Origin: a virus
Strand: one strand, 5' to 3'
DNA: 40,970 nucleotides
Virus record (IMG/VR): IMGVR_UViG_3300033141_004983
Location: 1-40,970 of that record
Positions 15,813 to 32,664 of the stretch are shown piece after piece (within the stretch, counting starts at the first letter, position 1; each line of letters opens with the position of its first letter). The position numbers and the translations under genes are program-made. Below the pieces are notes generated by a model. The model saw only the letters and a program-made list of their open reading frames with translations. It made no database searches and had not been told where the DNA came from.

Positions 15813-16727
15813 ATGAATATTATTGGAGCAGGAATGAGTGGGTTATTGGCTGGAGCTTTAAATCCAGGTTCAACTATTGTTGAAGCAGGAGAAGAAAGAA
15901 AATCAGATCATCAAGCAGTATTCAGATGTAGAAAACCAGATATTGGAAAAATGCTTGGGATACCTTTTAAAAAAGTAACTGTTCATAAGGCTATTTGGCT
16001 GGATGGGAAAGAAGTAAATTCATCACCCAGGATTACTCATATGTATTCAAGAAAAGTAACTGGCATAATAACAGCCAGAAGTATTTTTGATACTGCCTCA
16101 GCAATCCGATATATCCCACCAAAGGATTTTATTCATCAGCTAAAGAAAAGATGTAGTATTAAATATAATAGTCCTTTTGATATTACAGATTTTGAAGCAA
16201 TATATTGTAATGAACCTGTCATTTCCACTATACCCATTTTTAAAAATGCTGCTATATTTGGATTAAAATTAGATGGCCTTTGCCATTCTGATCCTATATA
16301 TGTCAATCGGTTTTTTATTCCAAAGTGTAATTCTTATTGTACTATTTATTATCCAGACCCAAAATTTTCTGCATACCGAGCCAGCATGACTGGTGATACT
16401 CTTATAATAGAAGGCATGAAAAAATTATGTTTTACTGACCTATCTGAAATTTGTAATTCTTTAGGAATAAAATATTTCAGTGATTCAACTAAGTACTTAA
16501 ATCATAAACAAAAATTTGGTAAGATGATTCCAATTGATAATAAAATAAGACAAAATATTATTACTGATTTAACTTTAAAATATGGTGTGTATTCTTTAGG
16601 TCGATTTGCTACCTGGCGACCTAAAGTAATGCTGGATGCTGTCCTTGAGGACATTTTTGTAATCCGAAGATTAATAGAAGAAGGCAATTATGGTAGTATA
16701 AAATATAAACAAGGAGAAAAATCATGA
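15813..16727 (+). CDS. Rossmann-fold flavoprotein, amine oxidase/UGM-like
   Basis: About 304 residues. It opens with the dinucleotide-binding motif NIIGAGMSGLLAGAL, and near the end has YSLGRFATWRPKVMLDAVLE, the second FAD-contact region of amine-oxidase and UDP-galactopyranose-mutase type flavoproteins. The middle domain is short, so the substrate pocket is reduced relative to known members. It directly precedes the flavin-dependent thymidylate synthase and overlaps it by 4 nt, suggesting that it supplies or handles reduced flavin or acts on a thymidylate product. Start at 15813 because AAAGGAG lies 7 nt upstream; a longer frame from 15756 would translate the helicase end and this site. Confidence 0.7.
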   Translation: MNIIGAGMSGLLAGALNPGSTIVEAGEERKSDHQAVFRCRKPDIGKMLGIPFKKVTVHKAIWLDGKEVNSSPRITHMYSRKVTGIITARSIFDTASAIRYIPPKDFIHQLKKRCSIKYNSPFDITDFEAIYCNEPVISTIPIFKNAAIFGLKLDGLCHSDPIYVNRFFIPKCNSYCTIYYPDPKFSAYRASMTGDTLIIEGMKKLCFTDLSEICNSLGIKYFSDSTKYLNHKQKFGKMIPIDNKIRQNIITDLTLKYGVYSLGRFATWRPKVMLDAVLEDIFVIRRLIEEGNYGSIKYKQGEKS

Positions 16728-17482
16728 ATAAAGATGCTGCGACAGTCAATTTAATTAATTATACTGGAGGTGCTCTTGAATTATTAATTTATACCAAGAG
16801 TGGAAGATTGGCAACTGGAACAAAACTTTTTGATATAGCAACCTGGCCATATGAGAAGAAAATGGATCATCTTTCTTATATGATGAACACCATTCAAAGT
16901 AGTTTTGAAATGGTAGATTATACTTTTGAAATAAAAAATGTTTCCAGAGCTTTTACTCATCAGCTGGTAAGAACCAGAACTGCTTCTTTTCAACAGCAAG
17001 CCATGAGGGTAGTAGATGCCAGAGATTTTACTTATCTTCAATCCACAGATAACCCAAGATATCAGATAGCAGCTCAAGAATCTCTTTCTCAATATGGCAA
17101 AATGATTGATGATGGAGAAGCAGTACAAGATGCTCGTGGAGTATTACCAATAGCAATTCATACAGAGATTATAATAAAAGCAAATCTCAGAACTTTATCT
17201 AACATGGCTGAACTCCGCTTATGTAAAAGAGCAGAAGGTGAATATCAGTCTGTCTTTAAGAAGATGGTAAAAGCAGTACTTGATGTTCATCCCTGGGCTG
17301 AACCTCTTTTAAAAGTCTATTGTATTAAAACTGGTATCTGTTATTTTCCAAGATATGATAAATGTCCAGTTCAAAAATTTTGTCTCAAACCAGAAGATGT
17401 AAAGCTATTAATAGAAAAAGCTTGGAATAAATATAATCATGTTGCTAATCCTGTAGCGAATAAAGATGGCATGACTATGTAA
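16724..17482 (+). CDS. thyX: Flavin-dependent thymidylate synthase
   Basis: 252 residues, of normal ThyX length. It makes dTMP from dUMP with methylenetetrahydrofolate and FAD/NADPH. The signature region is RTRTASFQQQAMR (residues 83-95), where the usual RHR-x7-S reads RTR-x7-A: the His is Thr and the Ser is Ala. Ser88, Arg83, Arg85 and Arg95 are kept. Other typical parts are LSYMMNTIQSSFEMVDYTFE, ADARGVLPIAIHTEII-like VQDARGVLPIAIHTE, and LRLCKRAEGEYQSVF. An extra C-terminal stretch has C-x8-C-x5-C (GICYFPRYDKCPVQKFC). ATG overlaps the flavoprotein stop. The changes may alter chemistry or substrate. Confidence 0.92.
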   Translation: MNKDAATVNLINYTGGALELLIYTKSGRLATGTKLFDIATWPYEKKMDHLSYMMNTIQSSFEMVDYTFEIKNVSRAFTHQLVRTRTASFQQQAMRVVDARDFTYLQSTDNPRYQIAAQESLSQYGKMIDDGEAVQDARGVLPIAIHTEIIIKANLRTLSNMAELRLCKRAEGEYQSVFKKMVKAVLDVHPWAEPLLKVYCIKTGICYFPRYDKCPVQKFCLKPEDVKLLIEKAWNKYNHVANPVANKDGMTM

Positions 17483-17628
17483 GAAGCTTTTAAAAGACTT
17501 TTCTTTTTAGCCTATAGGATACTATTAAAAAATAAAATAAATTTGATATACAATGGATAAAGAGTGTTGATCAATGAATAAAATATTAACTCAATCTGCT
17601 TATTTATATTTAAAAAAAGGAATTTATT
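17483..17628. other. Intergenic gap with a degenerate dispersed element
   Basis: 146 bp without a gene. On the minus strand it contains TTGTATATCAAA (17553-17542), like the core of the dispersed element, but the following CCTATA lies 23 nt away rather than 14. No clear terminator after thyX. The ribosome binding site AAAGGA for the next gene is at its right end, so a plus-strand promoter may also lie here. Confidence 0.4.
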
Positions 17629-18348
17629 ATGAAAAAAGATTGTATAATTATTGATCTTGAAGGTACACTTTCTAATTGTGAACATAGGATTCACCATTTG
17701 GAGAAAAAAGAATTTTATCAATGGAATGAACTCTTTCAACTGGATACGGTTAATGAAAGTATAGTTGAAATAATTAATCGGTATAGAGTAAATGGAGTGA
17801 GTATAATTCTTTGTACTGCTAAATCAGCAATACGATCATCAGAAGTTATGTCTTGGTTAAAGAAAAATGATCTATTAGAATTAATTGATCATTTCTATTT
17901 TAGAGTCTTAAAAGATACAAGATCAAGTGTAGAAGTAAAAAAAGAAATGTTAAGAGATATATTTAAAAACTATAATGTTTTAATAGCATTTGATGATAGA
18001 AAAGATATTTGTCAAATGTATCATTCTAAAGGAATAATCTCATATTTATTTATTCCAAATGAGCACAAAACTCCTGCTGATTTTTTAAAAGATGCTGCTG
18101 TAGTATTTGAAAATAAAAATAAAGAATATGGAGATTCATATAAGAGTTTTGGAAAAATTATGATGGCTTATTTTCCAAATGGCATAGAATTAAAAACTGA
18201 AAAAGATTTTACTCGATTTGCTATGTTAAATATTATGATATCTAAAACAGACAGATATTGCAAAAATTTTGTTAACAATGGTCATTCAGATAGCTTAACT
18301 GACTTATCAATTTATTCTACTATGCTACAGGAGATTGATAATGGATAA
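17629..18348 (+). CDS. HAD phosphatase fused to DUF1599 (nucleotide-modification-associated) domain
   Basis: 239 residues in two domains. Residues 1-145 are a HAD-type phosphatase like the 3'-phosphatase half of T4 polynucleotide kinase: motif I IIDLEGTLSN (the second catalytic Asp is Glu), motif II SIILCTAKS, and motif IV VLIAFDDRKDIC. Residues 150-239 match DUF1599 with NKEYGDSYKSFGK, FTRFAMLNIMISKTDRYCKN and SLTDLSIYSTMLQEID; this domain is linked to nucleotide pools and DNA base modification in phages. The pairing with thyX and a methyltransferase suggests hydrolysis or grooming of a nucleotide. The start has AAAAAAGGA upstream. The fusion is not one I know as common. Confidence 0.75.
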   Translation: MKKDCIIIDLEGTLSNCEHRIHHLEKKEFYQWNELFQLDTVNESIVEIINRYRVNGVSIILCTAKSAIRSSEVMSWLKKNDLLELIDHFYFRVLKDTRSSVEVKKEMLRDIFKNYNVLIAFDDRKDICQMYHSKGIISYLFIPNEHKTPADFLKDAAVVFENKNKEYGDSYKSFGKIMMAYFPNGIELKTEKDFTRFAMLNIMISKTDRYCKNFVNNGHSDSLTDLSIYSTMLQEIDNG

Positions 18349-18838
18349 TTTTCAATTGTTTTTTAAATATGCTATGGATAGAAATATTCCTATTTTAGAA
18401 CATTTTTATTCAGCTCATGGAATAATATTAAACCTTGGAGCAGGTGATAAAAAAATTCCTTATTCTATTCCACTTGATTATCCAAATTGGAATGCTGATA
18501 CTGATGATATTCCTTATGCTGATGGCTCAGTAAGTTTCATTCATGCTTACCATTTTCTTGAGCACTGTAAGCACCCAGTTAAAGTACTACAGGAATGTCA
18601 AAGAGTTCTCAGAATAGGCGGGCATATGAATATCTGTGTTCCTTATTATTCTGCTGCTATAGCTTCTCAAGACTTAGACCATAAACATTATTTTACCGAA
18701 GAAACATGGAAAACTCTTTTCAAAAATCAGTATTATGATAAAAATAAAATAGAATGGAAATTTAAAATCGGTTTTAATATGATCTGTGGTATAGTTGAAA
18801 GAAATCTTTGCCTACTAACCCAATTGGAGAAAATATGA
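18341..18838 (+). CDS. Class I SAM-dependent methyltransferase
   Basis: 165 residues. Motif I is IILNLGAGDKKIPYSIPLDY, with the acidic end of strand 2 at LDY; post-I DDIPYADGSVSFIHAYHFLE is typical of type-11 methyltransferases (DLPF-x-D-x-x-x-D), followed by VLQECQRVLRIGGHMNICVP and HKHYFTEETW. Length is short but complete. The substrate is unknown; with thyX and the HAD-DUF1599 gene next to it, a nucleotide or modified base is possible, while cell-surface or lipid substrates are also known for type 11. I start at ATG 18341 because GGAG lies 7 nt upstream, and the gene overlaps the preceding one by 8 nt. Confidence 0.8.
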   Translation: MDNFQLFFKYAMDRNIPILEHFYSAHGIILNLGAGDKKIPYSIPLDYPNWNADTDDIPYADGSVSFIHAYHFLEHCKHPVKVLQECQRVLRIGGHMNICVPYYSAAIASQDLDHKHYFTEETWKTLFKNQYYDKNKIEWKFKIGFNMICGIVERNLCLLTQLEKI

Positions 18839-19377
18839 TCACTATTTTTGACTCTGAAACTACAGGTTTGTTAAGGGCAAAGGGTTCAGATATACTACAC
18901 CAGCCTCATCTAACTGAAATTTATGCTATGCAAGTAGATGAAAAAAACAATTTAATAAGAGAATTTGGAACTCTTATTAAACCACCTATCCAAATTCCAA
19001 ATTTTTTAGAAAAGGCTATTGGAATTACAAATGAGATGGTAGTAAATGCTCCAACTTTTTTACAGATATATAAAAAAATTATTGAAGTATTTTTTTGTTC
19101 TCATACGGTGGTTGCTCATAATTTATCTTTTGATGAAGGAGTACTGATCAATGAGCTTAAAAGAATAGGGAAAGAACACCACTTCCCATATCCACCTATT
19201 AAATTTTGTACAGTAGAACAATCTATGCATATAAAAGGGCATAGGTTGAAAAATTCTGAGCTTTATAAAATTGCTACTGGAAAGGAAATGGTTGGTGCCC
19301 ATAGAGCTAAAGCGGATGTTTTGGCAACTTATGAATCTTATAAATGGTTGAGGAGTAAAAATAATGAAAATGTATAG
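18835..19377 (+). CDS. DnaQ-like 3'-5' exonuclease (proofreading subunit)
   Basis: 180 residues of the DEDDh exonuclease family. Motif I is TIFDSETTG (D6 and E8), motif II is VAHNLSFDEG, and motif III is GAHRAKADVLAT with the His and Asp. It removes misincorporated 3' ends. The C-family polymerase three genes downstream has a degenerate PHP domain and cannot proofread by itself, so this is likely its epsilon-type partner. I start at ATG 18835 with GGAG upstream; the 18808 frame would begin within the methyltransferase without a site. It overlaps the methyltransferase end by 4 nt. Confidence 0.9.
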   Translation: MITIFDSETTGLLRAKGSDILHQPHLTEIYAMQVDEKNNLIREFGTLIKPPIQIPNFLEKAIGITNEMVVNAPTFLQIYKKIIEVFFCSHTVVAHNLSFDEGVLINELKRIGKEHHFPYPPIKFCTVEQSMHIKGHRLKNSELYKIATGKEMVGAHRAKADVLATYESYKWLRSKNNENV

Positions 19378-19693: not shown

Positions 19694-20050
19694 ATGAAAT
19701 GCCCATACTGTAGTAAAGAAGCTAAACTTGTAACTGGAGAATTTGTTCATCCATTTCAGCCAAGATATAAAGATAAATATTATTATATATGTGATGCCTG
19801 TGATGCTTATGTAGGCTGTCATAAAGGTACTAAAAAAGCACTTGGGACTTTAGCAAATTATGAATTAAGAGTATTAAGAATGAAAGTACATCATAAATTT
19901 GATCCACTCTGGAGAAGTAAAGTTGTAACAAGAAAAGATGCATACATAATTTTATCGAAGAAATTAAATATATCATTAACAAAGTGTCATATAGCAGCTT
20001 TTGATATTGACACTTGTAACAGAGTATTGGGAATAATAGAATGTGGCTAA
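19694..20050 (+). CDS. Zinc-finger protein, DUF3268 family
   Basis: 118 residues. The N terminus MKCPYCSKEAKLVTGEFVHP and the segment YYYICDACDAYVGCHKGTKK give a C-x2-C ... C-x2-C-x4-C zinc-binding set, and GTLANYELRVLRMKVHHKFD then PLWRSK complete the DUF3268 signature. DUF3268 proteins are small phage and mobile-element proteins of unknown role, often next to replication genes. The C-terminal KDAYIILSKKLNISLTKCHI looks like a small helical DNA- or protein-contact unit. It overlaps the polymerase start by 10 nt, which suggests coupling. Confidence 0.85.
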   Translation: MKCPYCSKEAKLVTGEFVHPFQPRYKDKYYYICDACDAYVGCHKGTKKALGTLANYELRVLRMKVHHKFDPLWRSKVVTRKDAYIILSKKLNISLTKCHIAAFDIDTCNRVLGIIECG

Positions 20051-22860
20051 ATATAAAAACAGGTTATACTTTTAAAGCAGTATATGGACACCTGGATAAA
20101 ATAGCAGAAAAATGTTCTACTATGGCAGACTATGGAGGCATTGCTGATTTAGGTAATACTTTTGCCCATATCCCTTGGATGAAAGCTTGTAAAAAAGTAG
20201 GTATCAAACCAATTTATGGAGTCCAATTACCAGTAGTAGAAAATCTTCAAAGAAAAATAAGAAGATATCCATATAATTGGATGACCTTTATAGCTAAGAA
20301 TACTGAAGGGTTACAAGAAATATATCGACTTGTAGATTCATCTTTCCAGCAATTTTACTACAGGCAGAGAATAACCTATGAGCAGATCAATAGTACTTCT
20401 GGAAATATATTCATTTTATCAGGAGTAGCACCTAAATGGGATTTAATTAAAAAAGAAATGTTCAAAGAATTAAGTCCATGTACTCCTTATAATCAAAGAT
20501 ATTTATCAGATCATAAAGGCTTTACTACTGCCTGTATAGATAATTATTATATTGATGCTGAAGATGATATTATTTATGAACCATTTGCTGATGAAAGATT
20601 AAGAGAAAATAAAACAAGCCCTTTGCATATACTGACAAAAATAGAATGGGAAAATATTTATTCAGAAAATCACCCAGCTATTGGAAATTTAAAAAATATA
20701 GCATCCCAATGTAATGTAGTACTTCCTGAAGCCCCAATGGTGAAGTATATTGGAGATGATAATATTGAAATTTGGTGCAAAAAAGGAGCTAAAGAAAAAG
20801 GAATAACATCAAAACCAGAATATATTGAAAGATATAAAAGAGAGATAAAATTGATTAAAGAAAAAAATTATGTTGATTACTTCCTTGTGGTTGCTGATGC
20901 TATTCGATATGCTAAAACTAAAATGGCTGTTGGCCCATCACGTGGTAGTTCTGCTGGTTCTTTAATCTGCTACCTTATGGGAATTACAGAGATTGATCCG
21001 CTTGAATATGACCTTTACTTTGAAAGATTTATAGATATCAATAGAGGTGATTTACCAGATATAGATATAGACTTCCAAGACAATAAGCGGTATCTGGTTA
21101 TAAAATATTTAGAAAGAAAGTATGGAAAAGATAATGTTGCTCAAATAGGTAATATTAATCGACTAAAACCAAAGTCTGCTATAACTCGATTTGCTCAAGC
21201 TTTGGGTATACCTATAGATGATGTTATTGAATTAAAAGATGCTATTATGGAAAGGTCTGGTGGAGATGCCAGAGCAAATTCTTGTATGGAAGATACTTTT
21301 ACTGATACTGATGTGGGTAAAAAATTTATAGAAAAATATCCTGCTATGGAAATAGTAAAATATATAGAAGCTCATCCATCACATACTGGAGTACATGCTG
21401 CTGGTATATTAGTTTGTAATACTCCTATTACTAATTATTGTGGGATAAATAGCAGAGACAAAAAAAGAATAGGCATGCTTGATAAAAAAGATACTGAGGC
21501 TGTTAACTTATTAAAAATAGATGCCCTTGGCCTAAGAACTTTATCTATCATAGCTGGAGTATGCGACCAGATTGGTAAGCCTTATCCTTGGATGTATGAA
21601 ATACCAATAGATGATCCTGCTACTTTTAAAATTTTTAGTGATCATAGATTCAATGGTATTTTTCAATTTGAAGGATCAGCAATTCAAAATTTAGCTAAAC
21701 AGATGCCCATAGATGATATAGAAGATGTTGCTGCTCTTACTGCTCTTGGAAGGCCTGGCCCACTTATGTCTGGTGGTGCTTCTGCTTTTATCGAAGTAAG
21801 AAGTGGAATGAAAGAAGTAAAGTATTTGGGCAGTCATCCAGCTATTATAGAAGCTACAAAAAAGACATATGGTATAATTATATATCAAGAACAGATTATG
21901 AAAATTGGTAGGGAATATGGAAATTTATCTTGGGGTGATTTAGATACTATTAGAAGGGCTATGTCAAAATCATATGGTGAAGAATTTTTTGCCCAATTCA
22001 AAACTAAATTTATTAATGGAGCAGTAGAACATGGAGAAAATCCAGAAGAAGCAAAAAAGATTTGGAAGTCCATGCATAGTTTTGGTAGTTATTCCTTTAA
22101 TAAAAGTCATGCTGTATCCTATGGGCTTATAAGTTATATTTGTGCTTATTTAAAAGCTCATTACCCTTTAGAATTTACAGTTGCTTGTTTAAATCATTCC
22201 AAGAGCGACAGAAGTGCTTTAAAAATATTAAGAGATGCAGTGGAAAATGATGGAGTAAAATATAAGTATTTTGACCCAAAATATTCTATTGAAGAATGGA
22301 GTGTACAAGATGGAATTTTATATGGTGGATTAATTACCATCCATGGTATTGGCTCAGTAATGGCAAAAAAAACTATCAGGTTGAGGGCAGCAGAACTTCC
22401 TTATCCAGCAGGACTTGAAAATAAAATTGATACTGCAATAAGTACATTCAAATATTTATATCCTGCTAAAGAATTATATGGAGATTATTATACTGATCCA
22501 GCATCTTATAATTTAAATGGTTATGTAAGTAAAATTAATGAAGCAGACCATGATGGAGATTTTACTATAATTGGTTGTCTTATTAAAAAAAATTTAAGAG
22601 ATGCGAATGAAGCCTGTTTTGTTAGCAAAAGAAATGGTAAATTTTTAAAAGGTAATACTGCCTGGTTAAATATTACTATTGAAGATGATACTGGTTCAAT
22701 AATGTGTAAAATAAAAATTGAGGATTATGAAAGACTTGGTAAGATGATAGCTGAAACTGGTAAAGAAGAAAAAGACTGGTATATGGTTTATGGTCAAAAA
22801 ATAAATAATTGGAGTATAATTTTTGTTAAAAATATTATCAAAATAACAAGGGGGATTTAA
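20041..22860 (+). CDS. dnaE: C-family DNA polymerase (DnaE-like Pol III alpha)
   Basis: 939 residues, shorter than bacterial DnaE (about 1100-1160). The replicative polymerase of the phage. The palm is clear: GPSRGSSAGS (298-307) and the catalytic PDIDIDF (339-345). Fingers and the LGRPGPLMSGG region follow, then a helix-hairpin-helix-like segment and a C-terminal OB fold (FTIIGCLIKKNL ... EDDTGSIMCKIKIEDYERLG). The N-terminal PHP domain keeps its outline (GIKPIYGVQL) but lacks the metal-binding HxH (LNIKTGYTF), so it should not be active. Proofreading probably comes from the DnaQ-like gene at 18835. The stop overlaps the next ATG (TAATG). Confidence 0.95.
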   Translation: MWLNIKTGYTFKAVYGHLDKIAEKCSTMADYGGIADLGNTFAHIPWMKACKKVGIKPIYGVQLPVVENLQRKIRRYPYNWMTFIAKNTEGLQEIYRLVDSSFQQFYYRQRITYEQINSTSGNIFILSGVAPKWDLIKKEMFKELSPCTPYNQRYLSDHKGFTTACIDNYYIDAEDDIIYEPFADERLRENKTSPLHILTKIEWENIYSENHPAIGNLKNIASQCNVVLPEAPMVKYIGDDNIEIWCKKGAKEKGITSKPEYIERYKREIKLIKEKNYVDYFLVVADAIRYAKTKMAVGPSRGSSAGSLICYLMGITEIDPLEYDLYFERFIDINRGDLPDIDIDFQDNKRYLVIKYLERKYGKDNVAQIGNINRLKPKSAITRFAQALGIPIDDVIELKDAIMERSGGDARANSCMEDTFTDTDVGKKFIEKYPAMEIVKYIEAHPSHTGVHAAGILVCNTPITNYCGINSRDKKRIGMLDKKDTEAVNLLKIDALGLRTLSIIAGVCDQIGKPYPWMYEIPIDDPATFKIFSDHRFNGIFQFEGSAIQNLAKQMPIDDIEDVAALTALGRPGPLMSGGASAFIEVRSGMKEVKYLGSHPAIIEATKKTYGIIIYQEQIMKIGREYGNLSWGDLDTIRRAMSKSYGEEFFAQFKTKFINGAVEHGENPEEAKKIWKSMHSFGSYSFNKSHAVSYGLISYICAYLKAHYPLEFTVACLNHSKSDRSALKILRDAVENDGVKYKYFDPKYSIEEWSVQDGILYGGLITIHGIGSVMAKKTIRLRAAELPYPAGLENKIDTAISTFKYLYPAKELYGDYYTDPASYNLNGYVSKINEADHDGDFTIIGCLIKKNLRDANEACFVSKRNGKFLKGNTAWLNITIEDDTGSIMCKIKIEDYERLGKMIAETGKEEKDWYMVYGQKINNWSIIFVKNIIKITRGI

Positions 22861-30635: not shown

Positions 30636-32096
30636 TTAAAATTCCACCTGTGATTCCAAATTGGTTTGAGCTCCACTATACTGCTCATTTAAAACATCCT
30701 TAACCACCTGTCTTACTTTATCTGTATCCCCACCATTTATACTTATTGATACATTTGGTTTATTTACAGTAGTATTTGATGTGGCAGTATTTTGAATAGA
30801 ATTTGCTGAACGAGCTTGACCTGTTATCTCACCAGCTAAAGGAATTGATGCTATACCCATTCCTGGAATTTTATTAATCAGATCAATAGCACTATTTAAA
30901 GGTCTAATAAAAAAATCAGTTATAGCATTTCCAGCATCTTCTATCATCAGCAGCATACCTTCAAATGCTACATCACCTTCAGTAAAAATTAATTCCCATC
31001 CATCTTTTATCATAGTAAGTAAATCAAGAGTGGTTCTTAAAACTGCATCAAGTATAGGAAATTCATTTGCCAATTGACCAATAGCAGAATCCCCACCTTC
31101 AGCAAATTTTATAATATCTTCAAGCAGAAGAAGTATTGCTGCAGCCGTCGCAACTATTAAAATAGGCATCAGCAAAGCAGAAGCATTCATAGTAAGTAAT
31201 AATCCGGTGACCACTATAATCGTATTTTTTAATCCTCCCATAGCCTTAATCAGACTTAAAACAACCCCTACAACACGCCGAACAACGTTAAAAACTATCT
31301 TAATACTACCTACCACCCTATCTAAAAAAAGGCTTAAATTTTGTTGTATAATAGCTTTATTTACTTTGAACCATTCTATGAATAATCCATTAGATTTATT
31401 AAATTGTTTAATTAATCTTGTACCAATAGCATTAGCAACTCCAGAAACCACTTTGGTTACTCTTAACATTTCATCATTAAAATCAGCCGCAGCTTTAGCA
31501 GCATCCTGATCAATAACAAAACCAAGTTCCCTTGCTTCTTCTCTCTGCTTTTTTATTGCTTCACTACCCTGCTGAATAGCCAGAAGTAAATCACTACCAA
31601 TCCCAAGTTTTTGAGCAAACTCTAATTTCTCAGCTTGAGTACCTAAACCAGATATGGCATCTGAAACATCATTGAGCATTATATCCGCTTCTTTAAGCCT
31701 TCCATTGGCATCTGTTACAGATATTCCAAGCATACCAAATACTTCAACTCCAGCACCTATTCCTCTGGAAGCTTCTGAAGATATTCTGGCAAGATTTTCT
31801 AAAGAACTATTCATGGAATCAATAGAGCCACCATTCAGCTCAGCAACAAAACCAAGTTCTTGTAAGGCTTTAATATCAACCCCAGTTCTTTGGGCAAATT
31901 TTCCAAGCTCATCATTTGATGCAGCTATCTTTTTTGTAAACATAAAAATAGCAGTAGCAGCAGCAGTAGCTCCAGCTACAATAGCAGTTAAGCCCTTAAC
32001 AGCAGACCCAAGAAAATCATCAAATTTTTCTAATTTTTCATCATCAACATCAAATGATAATTTAGTTATCAAATTTTCAATTACTGTATCAGCCAT
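30636..32096 (-). CDS. Tape measure protein (short)
   Basis: 486 residues, short for a contractile tail, implying a short tail (about 0.15 nm per residue gives some 70 nm). The N terminus has helical stretches (NLITKLSFDVDDEKLEKFDD), a small Ala-rich hydrophobic run, TGVDIKALQELGFVAELNGG, and long coiled-coil helices. Around residues 285-335 there are strongly hydrophobic runs (IIVVTGLLLTMNASALLMPI, IVATAAAILLLLEDI) that could insert in the host membrane. The C terminus is amphipathic and ends DVLNEQYSGAQTNLESQVEF. ATG overlaps the -1 frame of the chaperone (TAATG) with AAGGA upstream. Confidence 0.85.
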   Translation of the reverse strand: MADTVIENLITKLSFDVDDEKLEKFDDFLGSAVKGLTAIVAGATAAATAIFMFTKKIAASNDELGKFAQRTGVDIKALQELGFVAELNGGSIDSMNSSLENLARISSEASRGIGAGVEVFGMLGISVTDANGRLKEADIMLNDVSDAISGLGTQAEKLEFAQKLGIGSDLLLAIQQGSEAIKKQREEARELGFVIDQDAAKAAADFNDEMLRVTKVVSGVANAIGTRLIKQFNKSNGLFIEWFKVNKAIIQQNLSLFLDRVVGSIKIVFNVVRRVVGVVLSLIKAMGGLKNTIIVVTGLLLTMNASALLMPILIVATAAAILLLLEDIIKFAEGGDSAIGQLANEFPILDAVLRTTLDLLTMIKDGWELIFTEGDVAFEGMLLMIEDAGNAITDFFIRPLNSAIDLINKIPGMGIASIPLAGEITGQARSANSIQNTATSNTTVNKPNVSISINGGDTDKVRQVVKDVLNEQYSGAQTNLESQVEF

Positions 32097-32664
32097 TACT
32101 TCCTTTTATTCTGAAGATATATTTTTTCTTCTTCTATGTCAAGTACTTCATTTAAATAATATGCATCAGATAAACTATATACTGTTTTTAATTCATGTAG
32201 GGTTGCCATTTTTCCATTTATTAATCGAGCTATAAAAGGGTCAACATTTAATTTTCTGGAGTCAGACTTTCCTTTTTTATAGTGGGCAAATCTGACTTTT
32301 TGAACTCCCCCAGGTTAAAATTTACCTCCATTATAAAGCCAACAACCTTCCACATCTCAAATGGCTTACCTGCAAAATGAGTAGAAAAATCTACTACTTT
32401 TGGGACATCTCCATCCTGTATAAATACTCCTTTTTCAAAAAGCAGTAATACAAGACCATTTACCAGCTCATCATCAAAATTTTCCATCAGTTTAGGAATC
32501 AATGCAGCCAATTTTTCTTTTATGGGCTTATCCATATCCATTAAAGGAAGTGCCCCTTTGCCCAAGAGTCTGATTAGCTTAGTCTGTACTTTCAATGCTC
32601 TCATAGCATCCATCTGAGTCACCAGATAAATAGTAGTCCCAATTGATTTACTTTTCTGTTCCAT
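32096..32664 (-). CDS. Tail assembly chaperone, -1 frameshift fusion product
   Basis: The predicted long chaperone (lambda GT-like). Translation begins at 32664, reads the zero frame to the slippery A AAA AAG at 32278-32272, slips back one base, and continues as GKSDSRKLNVDPFIARLING, then KMATLHELKTVYSLSDAYYL and NEVLDIEEEKIYLQNKRK, stopping at TAA 32098-32096, which overlaps the tape measure ATG. The downstream frame has no start of its own with a binding site, fills the whole gap to the tape measure gene and is open from the slip site. About 189 residues. It would bind the tape measure during tail assembly. Confidence 0.85.
32248..32664 (-). CDS. Tail assembly chaperone, short zero-frame product
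   Basis: 138 residues. MEQKSKSIGTTIYLVTQMDA then MRALKVQTKLIRLLGKGALP, helical, ending KKESLTPEN. It sits between tube and tape measure, the fixed place of this chaperone, and resembles phage TAC proteins of Mu-like tails. AAAGGA lies before the ATG at 32664. It is the major product; a fraction of ribosomes make the longer fusion. Confidence 0.88.
   Translation of the reverse strand: MEQKSKSIGTTIYLVTQMDAMRALKVQTKLIRLLGKGALPLMDMDKPIKEKLAALIPKLMENFDDELVNGLVLLLFEKGVFIQDGDVPKVVDFSTHFAGKPFEMWKVVGFIMEVNFNLGEFKKSDLPTIKKESLTPEN
32272..32278 (-). promoter_or_regulatory. Programmed -1 frameshift site A AAA AAG
   Basis: On the minus strand the zero frame reads ATA AAA AAG GAA; the heptamer A AAA AAG allows both tRNAs to slip back one base. 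This is the most efficient type of slippery heptamer in E. coli-like ribosomes. A Shine-Dalgarno-like stimulator is not obvious, and a downstream stem is weak. Confidence 0.85.

Follow-up and report, generated by a model that had tools for sequence, protein, structure and literature searches.

A ThyX-like protein and a flavoprotein at the core of a candidate phage DNA-base hypermodification module

Why would a phage encode, close to its DNA polymerase, a ThyX-like protein with changed signature residues together with a flavoprotein, a phosphatase and a methyltransferase? The question is raised by four neighbouring genes of an uncultivated virus record (IMG/VR IMGVR_UViG_3300033141_004983), whose whole stretch of 40,970 bases was analysed and is referred to here as the window. 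An earlier interpretation made from the letters alone (the sequence-only reading) had proposed that these genes might create, protect or select an unusual pyrimidine in phage DNA or, more simply, tune the supply of thymidine monophosphate (dTMP). The first proposal is now strongly favoured by co-occurrence of the genes in relatives, swappable tailoring enzymes, lost ThyX catalytic residues and the published restriction resistance of related phages; the second has become a weaker alternative. Our best explanation is that the four genes probably exemplify a phage module for DNA-base hypermodification, in which the ThyX-like product would be a 5-substituted deoxyuridine monophosphate (dUMP) destined for tailoring and incorporation into DNA.

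A conserved core and an exchangeable slot

A tblastn search with the flavoprotein (gene 1) led to 359 phage records, and a profile-based scan of IMG/VR yielded 309 relatives. Linkage was counted over the 76 flavoprotein loci for which 4 kb or more of downstream sequence is available; they are not all independent, and their open reading frames (ORFs) were called mechanically. A same-strand ThyX lies within 4 kb of the flavoprotein in every one (76/76), and within 300 bases in 46; a member of the HAD family of gene 3 occurs within 6 kb in 69/76 loci, and the family is present in 51 of 55 non-redundant loci. This association is far beyond chance and bears out the co-occurrence in relatives for which the sequence-only reading had proposed a neighbourhood search. 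The common gene order is helicase, flavoprotein, ThyX, HAD/C-terminal protein, variable genes, exonuclease and DnaE polymerase, and it was found in Pbunavirus, Carpasinavirus, Wifcevirus, Kylevirus, Myosmarvirus and Luteibacter phage Pluto. In Rhizobium Cuauhnahuacvirus the module genes are scattered over about 6 kb with many small genes interspersed, and Vibrio phage VA-RY-3 carries, at the expected place, a HAD-like gene that the family profile missed. The module also adjoins DnaE in two bacterial metagenome-assembled contigs (L117 and L118), which are probably phage contigs binned with bacteria.

These comparisons show that a three-part core (flavoprotein, ThyX-like protein, and HAD plus DUF6378-like domain) is co-inherited beside the replicative DNA polymerase and accompanied by exchangeable tailoring enzymes. 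The sequence-only reading had not recognised the combination as described; we too found no description of the module in the literature searched, which comprised openly licensed papers only, so that other work may exist. The core is widespread rather than a one-off, having gone unrecognised in Pbunavirus, Wifcevirus and others.

The variable genes, which we term the tailoring slot, were surveyed in the 53 non-redundant loci whose interval from flavoprotein to polymerase is complete, and 41 of these encode at least one tailoring-type enzyme. The commonest content is a pair of SDR and VOC-like proteins; other classes are a phrog_6636-type methyltransferase (10 loci, the window and nine others), radical SAM (S-adenosylmethionine), glycosyltransferase-like, carbamoyltransferase, sulfotransferase and pyruvyltransferase proteins. 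Pfam backs the radical SAM, carbamoyltransferase, PS_pyruv_trans, FkbM methyltransferase, sulfotransferase and SDR assignments, the VOC match being weak. The glycosyltransferase assignments are weaker, the main family having no Pfam or PHROG match and a name taken from sequence only. One slot protein (locus L080, 7912-8697) matches the PHROG of the T4 beta-glucosyl-HMC-alpha-glucosyltransferase (E 8.5e-6), and one glycosyltransferase-like protein (L096, 8574-9482) carries a C-terminal domain resembling deoxynucleoside monophosphate (dNMP) kinases (phrog_236, E 1.4e-9). For most slot enzymes the group acted upon would be a hydroxyl or an amine, in keeping with a shared 5-hydroxymethyl-like handle. 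By analogy, swappable group-transfer enzymes between the core and the DNA polymerase gene follow the logic of phage DNA-base hypermodification, and the gene arrangement of such systems, a synthase-family protein linked with tailoring enzymes beside replication genes, is found here.

The ThyX-like protein and its partners

Gene 2 passes the ThyX profiles PF02511 (124 bits, cut-off 24.8) and TIGR02170 (99 bits, cut-off 87.9). In Thermotoga maritima numbering it carries the substitutions H53I, H79T, N85Q, S88A, Y91V and E144Q, and the residues of the flavin adenine dinucleotide (FAD) and dUMP site, Q75, R78, R80, R90, R147 and R174, are all present. Profiles and residue mapping together confirm the ThyX with altered signature residues that had been proposed from the sequence. 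We counted these residues in 63 non-redundant module members (below 80% identity), a wider mapping covering 93. The five arginines are kept in 63/63 and Q75 in 62/63; Tyr91 and His53 occur in none of the 63, His79 in four and Ser88 in 23. Our non-module comparison set comprised nine phage or viral ThyX proteins, T. maritima, two cellular proteins and Bacillus phage SP-15, the search for cellular controls having been made by phylum over 81 genomes with matches in four only. Among the nine phage or viral proteins, position 91 is Tyr or Phe in eight, Ser88 is present in all nine, His79 in seven and His53 in five. For the transfer of methylene from the flavin carbinolamine, Tyr91 and Ser88 have been put forward as the acids; H53 is hydrogen-bonded to Y91 and stacks against folate, and mutation of Y91 slows flavin oxidation about 1000-fold (PMC8316439, PMC11940539).

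Compared with canonical ThyX (T. maritima and others), the module proteins thus share the fold, as judged by sequence profile, and the FAD- and dUMP-site arginines, but lack Tyr91 and His53 and mostly His79, Asn85 and Ser88; they have retained the arginines of the substrate site and lost residues for normal thymidylate synthesis. Gene 2 passes the ThyX profiles but fails the catalytic-residue test, and we therefore avoid the name thymidylate synthase for it. All module proteins fall into one clade, on a single side of a branch with SH-aLRT support of 96, in a quick tree with long outgroup branches. The protein of the window also ends in a cysteine-rich extension, VYCIKTGICYFPRYDKCPVQKFC (window 17321-17383, ThyX residues 200-220), which is absent from canonical ThyX. 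Three cysteines are shared within the window's clade and with the myovirus group of Pbuna-, Wifce- and Carpasinavirus, whereas members from Rhizobium and Vibrio phages lack them; the extension may hold a metal or Fe-S site.

These residues bear on the alternative of ordinary nucleotide supply, in which gene 2 encodes a divergent but working thymidylate synthase that increases dTMP, the HAD protein serves as a nucleotidase, and the flavoprotein and methyltransferase are unrelated neighbours. Many phages carry ThyX for dTMP, gene 2 clears both profile cut-offs, and we found no ThyA-type synthase or homologue in three member phages tested. Set against this are the loss of Tyr91 and His53 throughout one clade, an obligate flavoprotein partner not seen at the ordinary phage ThyX loci examined, slot enzymes of no use for making dTMP, and the restriction-resistant DNA of relatives. 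We consider ordinary supply unlikely.

The only family matched by gene 1 is phrog_4828, of unknown function, and profile searches gave no significant sequence match to solved structures. Its AlphaFold2 (AF2) model (pLDDT 76.5) matched UDP-galactopyranose mutase in Foldseek (E 2.1e-9) and aligned with that enzyme in VIA-align over 278 residues (Z 17.1, rmsd 3.5), ahead of protoporphyrinogen oxidase (Z 16.1) and monoamine oxidase (Z 13.8). Gene 1 has a GxGxxG Rossmann motif at its N-terminus; the family as a whole retains a GxGxxG motif, together with a block, YSLGR-ATWRP, that hardly varies. Motif and modelled FAD-enzyme fold therefore support the Rossmann flavoprotein of the sequence-only reading, with the fold and FAD-binding motif of the UDP-galactopyranose mutase/protoporphyrinogen oxidase/amine oxidase superfamily but a shorter chain and only about 11-16% identity.

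An alternative is that the target of the module lies outside phage DNA, among RNA nucleotides, signal or defence compounds derived from nucleotides, or surface glycans. A galactofuranose-type pathway is hinted at by the flavoprotein fold, which is nearest to UDP-galactopyranose mutase, and by the glycosyl-, carbamoyl- and pyruvyltransferases of the slot. The PS_pyruv_trans, FkbM and carbamoyltransferase families are also known in polysaccharide synthesis. The core, however, always includes a ThyX relative with a dUMP site and sits among replication genes, one slot protein resembles a T4 DNA glucosyltransferase and another carries a dNMP-kinase-like domain, and the purified virion DNA of Pbunavirus JG024 resists enzymes. 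A target outside DNA seems to us decidedly improbable.

For gene 3, the AF2 model (pLDDT 84.8) aligns with the phosphatase of T4 Pnkp (5uj0) over 133 residues (VIA-align Z 20.9, rmsd 1.6). A P-loop kinase was sought in the same family and rejected, the Walker A motif being found in 0/77 HAD-domain relatives. The HAD genes of loci L012, L014, L023, L024 and L026 are publicly annotated as 'polynucleotide kinase/phosphorylase' although the P-loop is absent, and such 'polynucleotide kinase' annotations in module phages are misleading. In the window, HAD motif I (17629-17700) reads DLEGT against the usual DxDGT, an Asp-to-Glu change common to ten relatives.

The sequence-only reading had described gene 3 as a HAD-DUF1599 fusion and linked it to nucleotide modification through DUF1599. 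A HAD phosphatase fused to a helical domain stands, but the DUF1599 label, and with it that link, does not: PF07659 gave no match in the record at E<=10 and matched 0/16 domain members. The one family that the C-terminal domain and its stand-alone relatives do match is DUF6378 (PF19905), weakly, in 13 of the 16 at E<=0.1 (best E 4.9e-5), with the member listed in full scoring 23.7 bits against a cut-off of 27.1. For a possible MazG-like nucleoside triphosphate pyrophosphatase identity of the C-terminal domain, a PDB profile search returned weak, chance-level matches only, and the HAD domain took up the hits of both structure searches. Because 43 loci have the two parts as distinct genes, their fusion is incidental, and each part is retained. 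A single-sequence IMG/VR search for gene 3 by peptide patterns found no relative, although loci found through the flavoprotein carry its family. In Pantoea phage Kyle (L025, 5825-6115), a small annotated pyrophosphatase lies between thyX and the HAD gene, a hint of nucleotide-pool control.

Restriction phenotypes and the proposed base

The core genes are present in Pbunavirus JG024 and in Wifcevirus, for which restriction phenotypes are published. JG024 virion DNA was uncut by ScaI and also by NdeI and BsaI (the latter two as authors' data not shown), and XbaI cuts it (PMC10913387), as does SacII (PMC3008698); its genome holds 2 ScaI, 10 NdeI, 5 BsaI, 6 XbaI and 3 SacII sites. Digestion of another PB1-like phage by EcoRI and HindIII was incomplete (PMC3634792). 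The Wifcevirus phages of the BASEL collection were insensitive to the restriction-modification (RM) systems tested except EcoP1_I, and their authors found no known protection genes (PMC11990801). Yeast-made JG024 DNA reboots only in hosts lacking RM systems and wild JG024 infects both parents, a result that is only suggestive, as the unrelated phage DMS3 behaved partly alike. Cleavage at the GC-only SacII site, together with retention of R174 on the uracil side, points to T rather than C as the presumed modified base. We considered a purine-T rule and a TG/TC rule for the sequence context of modification from the five enzymes; neither is secure.

Could this resistance have a cause outside the module, DNA methylation or some anti-restriction function, and so be no evidence for it? 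Methylation is what the JG024 authors suggested (PMC10913387), a DNA adenine methyltransferase is annotated in the related phage JJ01 (PMC9583000), and RM systems limited yeast-made DMS3 DNA too. The 17 ScaI, NdeI and BsaI sites of JG024, however, have no evident methylation motif in common by which all three enzymes would be blocked, an anti-restriction protein gives no protection to purified DNA, and the Wifcevirus phages lack recognised protection genes, as noted above. Resistance of separate origin is, in our estimate, quite unlikely.

A hypermodification module would operate as follows. The ThyX-like protein would bind FAD and dUMP and, carrying out no ordinary thymidylate synthesis, convert dUMP into a 5-substituted dUMP with a reactive one-carbon handle at C5, such as 5-hydroxymethyl. 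The flavoprotein may then oxidise or rearrange the C5 side chain, by oxidation or by covalent chemistry at flavin N5, and the HAD/DUF6378-like pair would work on nucleotides, for instance depleting competing dTMP or thymidine triphosphate (dTTP) or removing a phosphate. The slot enzyme would decorate the handle before or after incorporation; in the window its SAM methyltransferase might leave an O- or N-methylated group. The modified base would replace some or all of the virion thymine and shield the DNA from host nucleases. That the DNA holds a modified T-type base is quite likely; that the handle is of the hydroxymethyl type is a tentative proposal, with the odds slightly against it.

The hydroxymethyluracil synthase of PhiW-14 groups with Ackermannviridae proteins, and the hydroxymethyluracil synthases of this group are ThyA-type enzymes. 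Phages M6, ViI and PhiW-14 hypermodify thymidine by way of 5-hydroxymethyldeoxyuridine (5hmdU), and ViI DNA resists NdeI (PMC6449724). Those systems share with the module a presumed T-derived base, partial enzyme resistance and several tailoring steps after a C5 handle, but here the synthase relative is ThyX with a flavoprotein of the UDP-galactopyranose mutase fold, and the three members searched lack ThyA. The only precedent for ThyX in hypermodification that we found in the literature searched is SP-15, a phage with glycosylated, hypermodified T, whose Thy1-family gp130 is the proposed 5-hydroxymethyl-dUMP synthase (PMC5977210). Like the module protein, gp130 is a putative ThyX-type handle maker, but it is extremely divergent and lies outside the module clade; a profile search, run without a positive control, found no phrog_4828-type flavoprotein in SP-15. 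T4-type hydroxymethylcytosine glucosylation and the MetaGPA carbamoyltransferase acting on 5-hydroxymethylcytosine, biochemically established in another phage system and inactive on 5hmdUTP (PMC8670742), likewise pair a thymidylate-synthase-family handle maker with a glycosyl- or carbamoyltransferase on a hydroxyl, but they target cytosine and use ThyA-fold hydroxymethylases.

Several observations weigh against a hypermodification module. No recognised slot enzyme is present in 12/53 loci, several slot enzyme types are known also from surface-glycan synthesis, and the ThyX-like protein passes an equivalog cut-off, that of TIGR02170. The roles given to the flavoprotein and HAD protein are guesses, we found no measured nucleoside of any module member in the literature searched, and the link from phenotype to genes is correlative and covers two phage groups only. 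HindIII also cut the DNA of the PB1-like phage E79 (PMC6280614); any modification is therefore partial or context-dependent.

On balance, we lean towards a new hypermodification class, in which a re-purposed ThyX and a flavoprotein of the UDP-galactopyranose mutase fold would make a deoxyuridine that is 5-substituted but is not thymidine. The class would extend to hundreds of sequenced phages, Pbunavirus therapy phages among them, and would diversify in nature into methylated, glycosylated, carbamoylated, sulfated and pyruvylated bases. Pbunavirus phages belong to the P. aeruginosa phages that personalised therapy employs most often (PMC11990801). If correct, a modified base would explain both the enzyme resistance of Pbunavirus and the restriction insensitivity of Wifcevirus, and would bear on the cloning and rebooting of module phages. 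It would also provide a ThyX-based counterpart to the known hydroxymethylases and a family of new DNA chemistries, and the names 'thymidylate synthase' and 'polynucleotide kinase' would be wrong for many genes of these phages.

The locus in the window

The four co-directional, tightly packed ORFs of the sequence-only reading are confirmed at the positions in the table, and its small SAM methyltransferase is upheld by Pfam and PHROG matches that place gene 4 in class I. Overlaps of a few bases join genes 1 and 2, genes 3 and 4, and gene 4 and the exonuclease gene, whose ATG overlaps the methyltransferase stop.

Table 1. Genes of the candidate module and conserved 3' neighbours in the window
Feature	Position	Strand	Evidence
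Gene 1: flavoprotein, phrog_4828, predicted UDP-galactopyranose mutase/protoporphyrinogen oxidase/amine oxidase fold, GxGxxG motif	15813..16727	+	phrog_4828 E 1e-74; AF2; Foldseek; VIA-align
Gene 2: ThyX-like protein, signature residues changed, FAD/dUMP-site arginines kept	16724..17482	+	PF02511 E 7.6e-36; residue mapping; one clade
Gene 3: T4 Pnkp 3'-phosphatase type HAD (residues 1-143) fused to helical DUF6378-like domain (~146-239)	17629..18348	+	PF25109 E 3.3e-18; AF2; VIA-align
Gene 4, slot gene: class I SAM-dependent methyltransferase, phrog_6636, presumed tailoring enzyme	18341..18838	+	phrog_6636 E 8.2e-49; Methyltransf_11 E 1.4e-9
3' neighbour, conserved: DEDD exonuclease (polymerase exonuclease subunit type)	18835..19377	+	PF00929 E 7.9e-18; phrog_192; equal position in relatives
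3' neighbour, conserved: DnaE-type DNA polymerase	20041..22860	+	phrog_405 E 4e-233; equal position in relatives

Elsewhere the window encodes myovirus structural proteins (tail sheath, baseplate wedge), and its nucleotide homology to known phages is confined to a helicase fragment. A forward ORF of 193 amino acids at 31654-32235 has no family match, lies mostly antisense to the tape measure gene and may be spurious.

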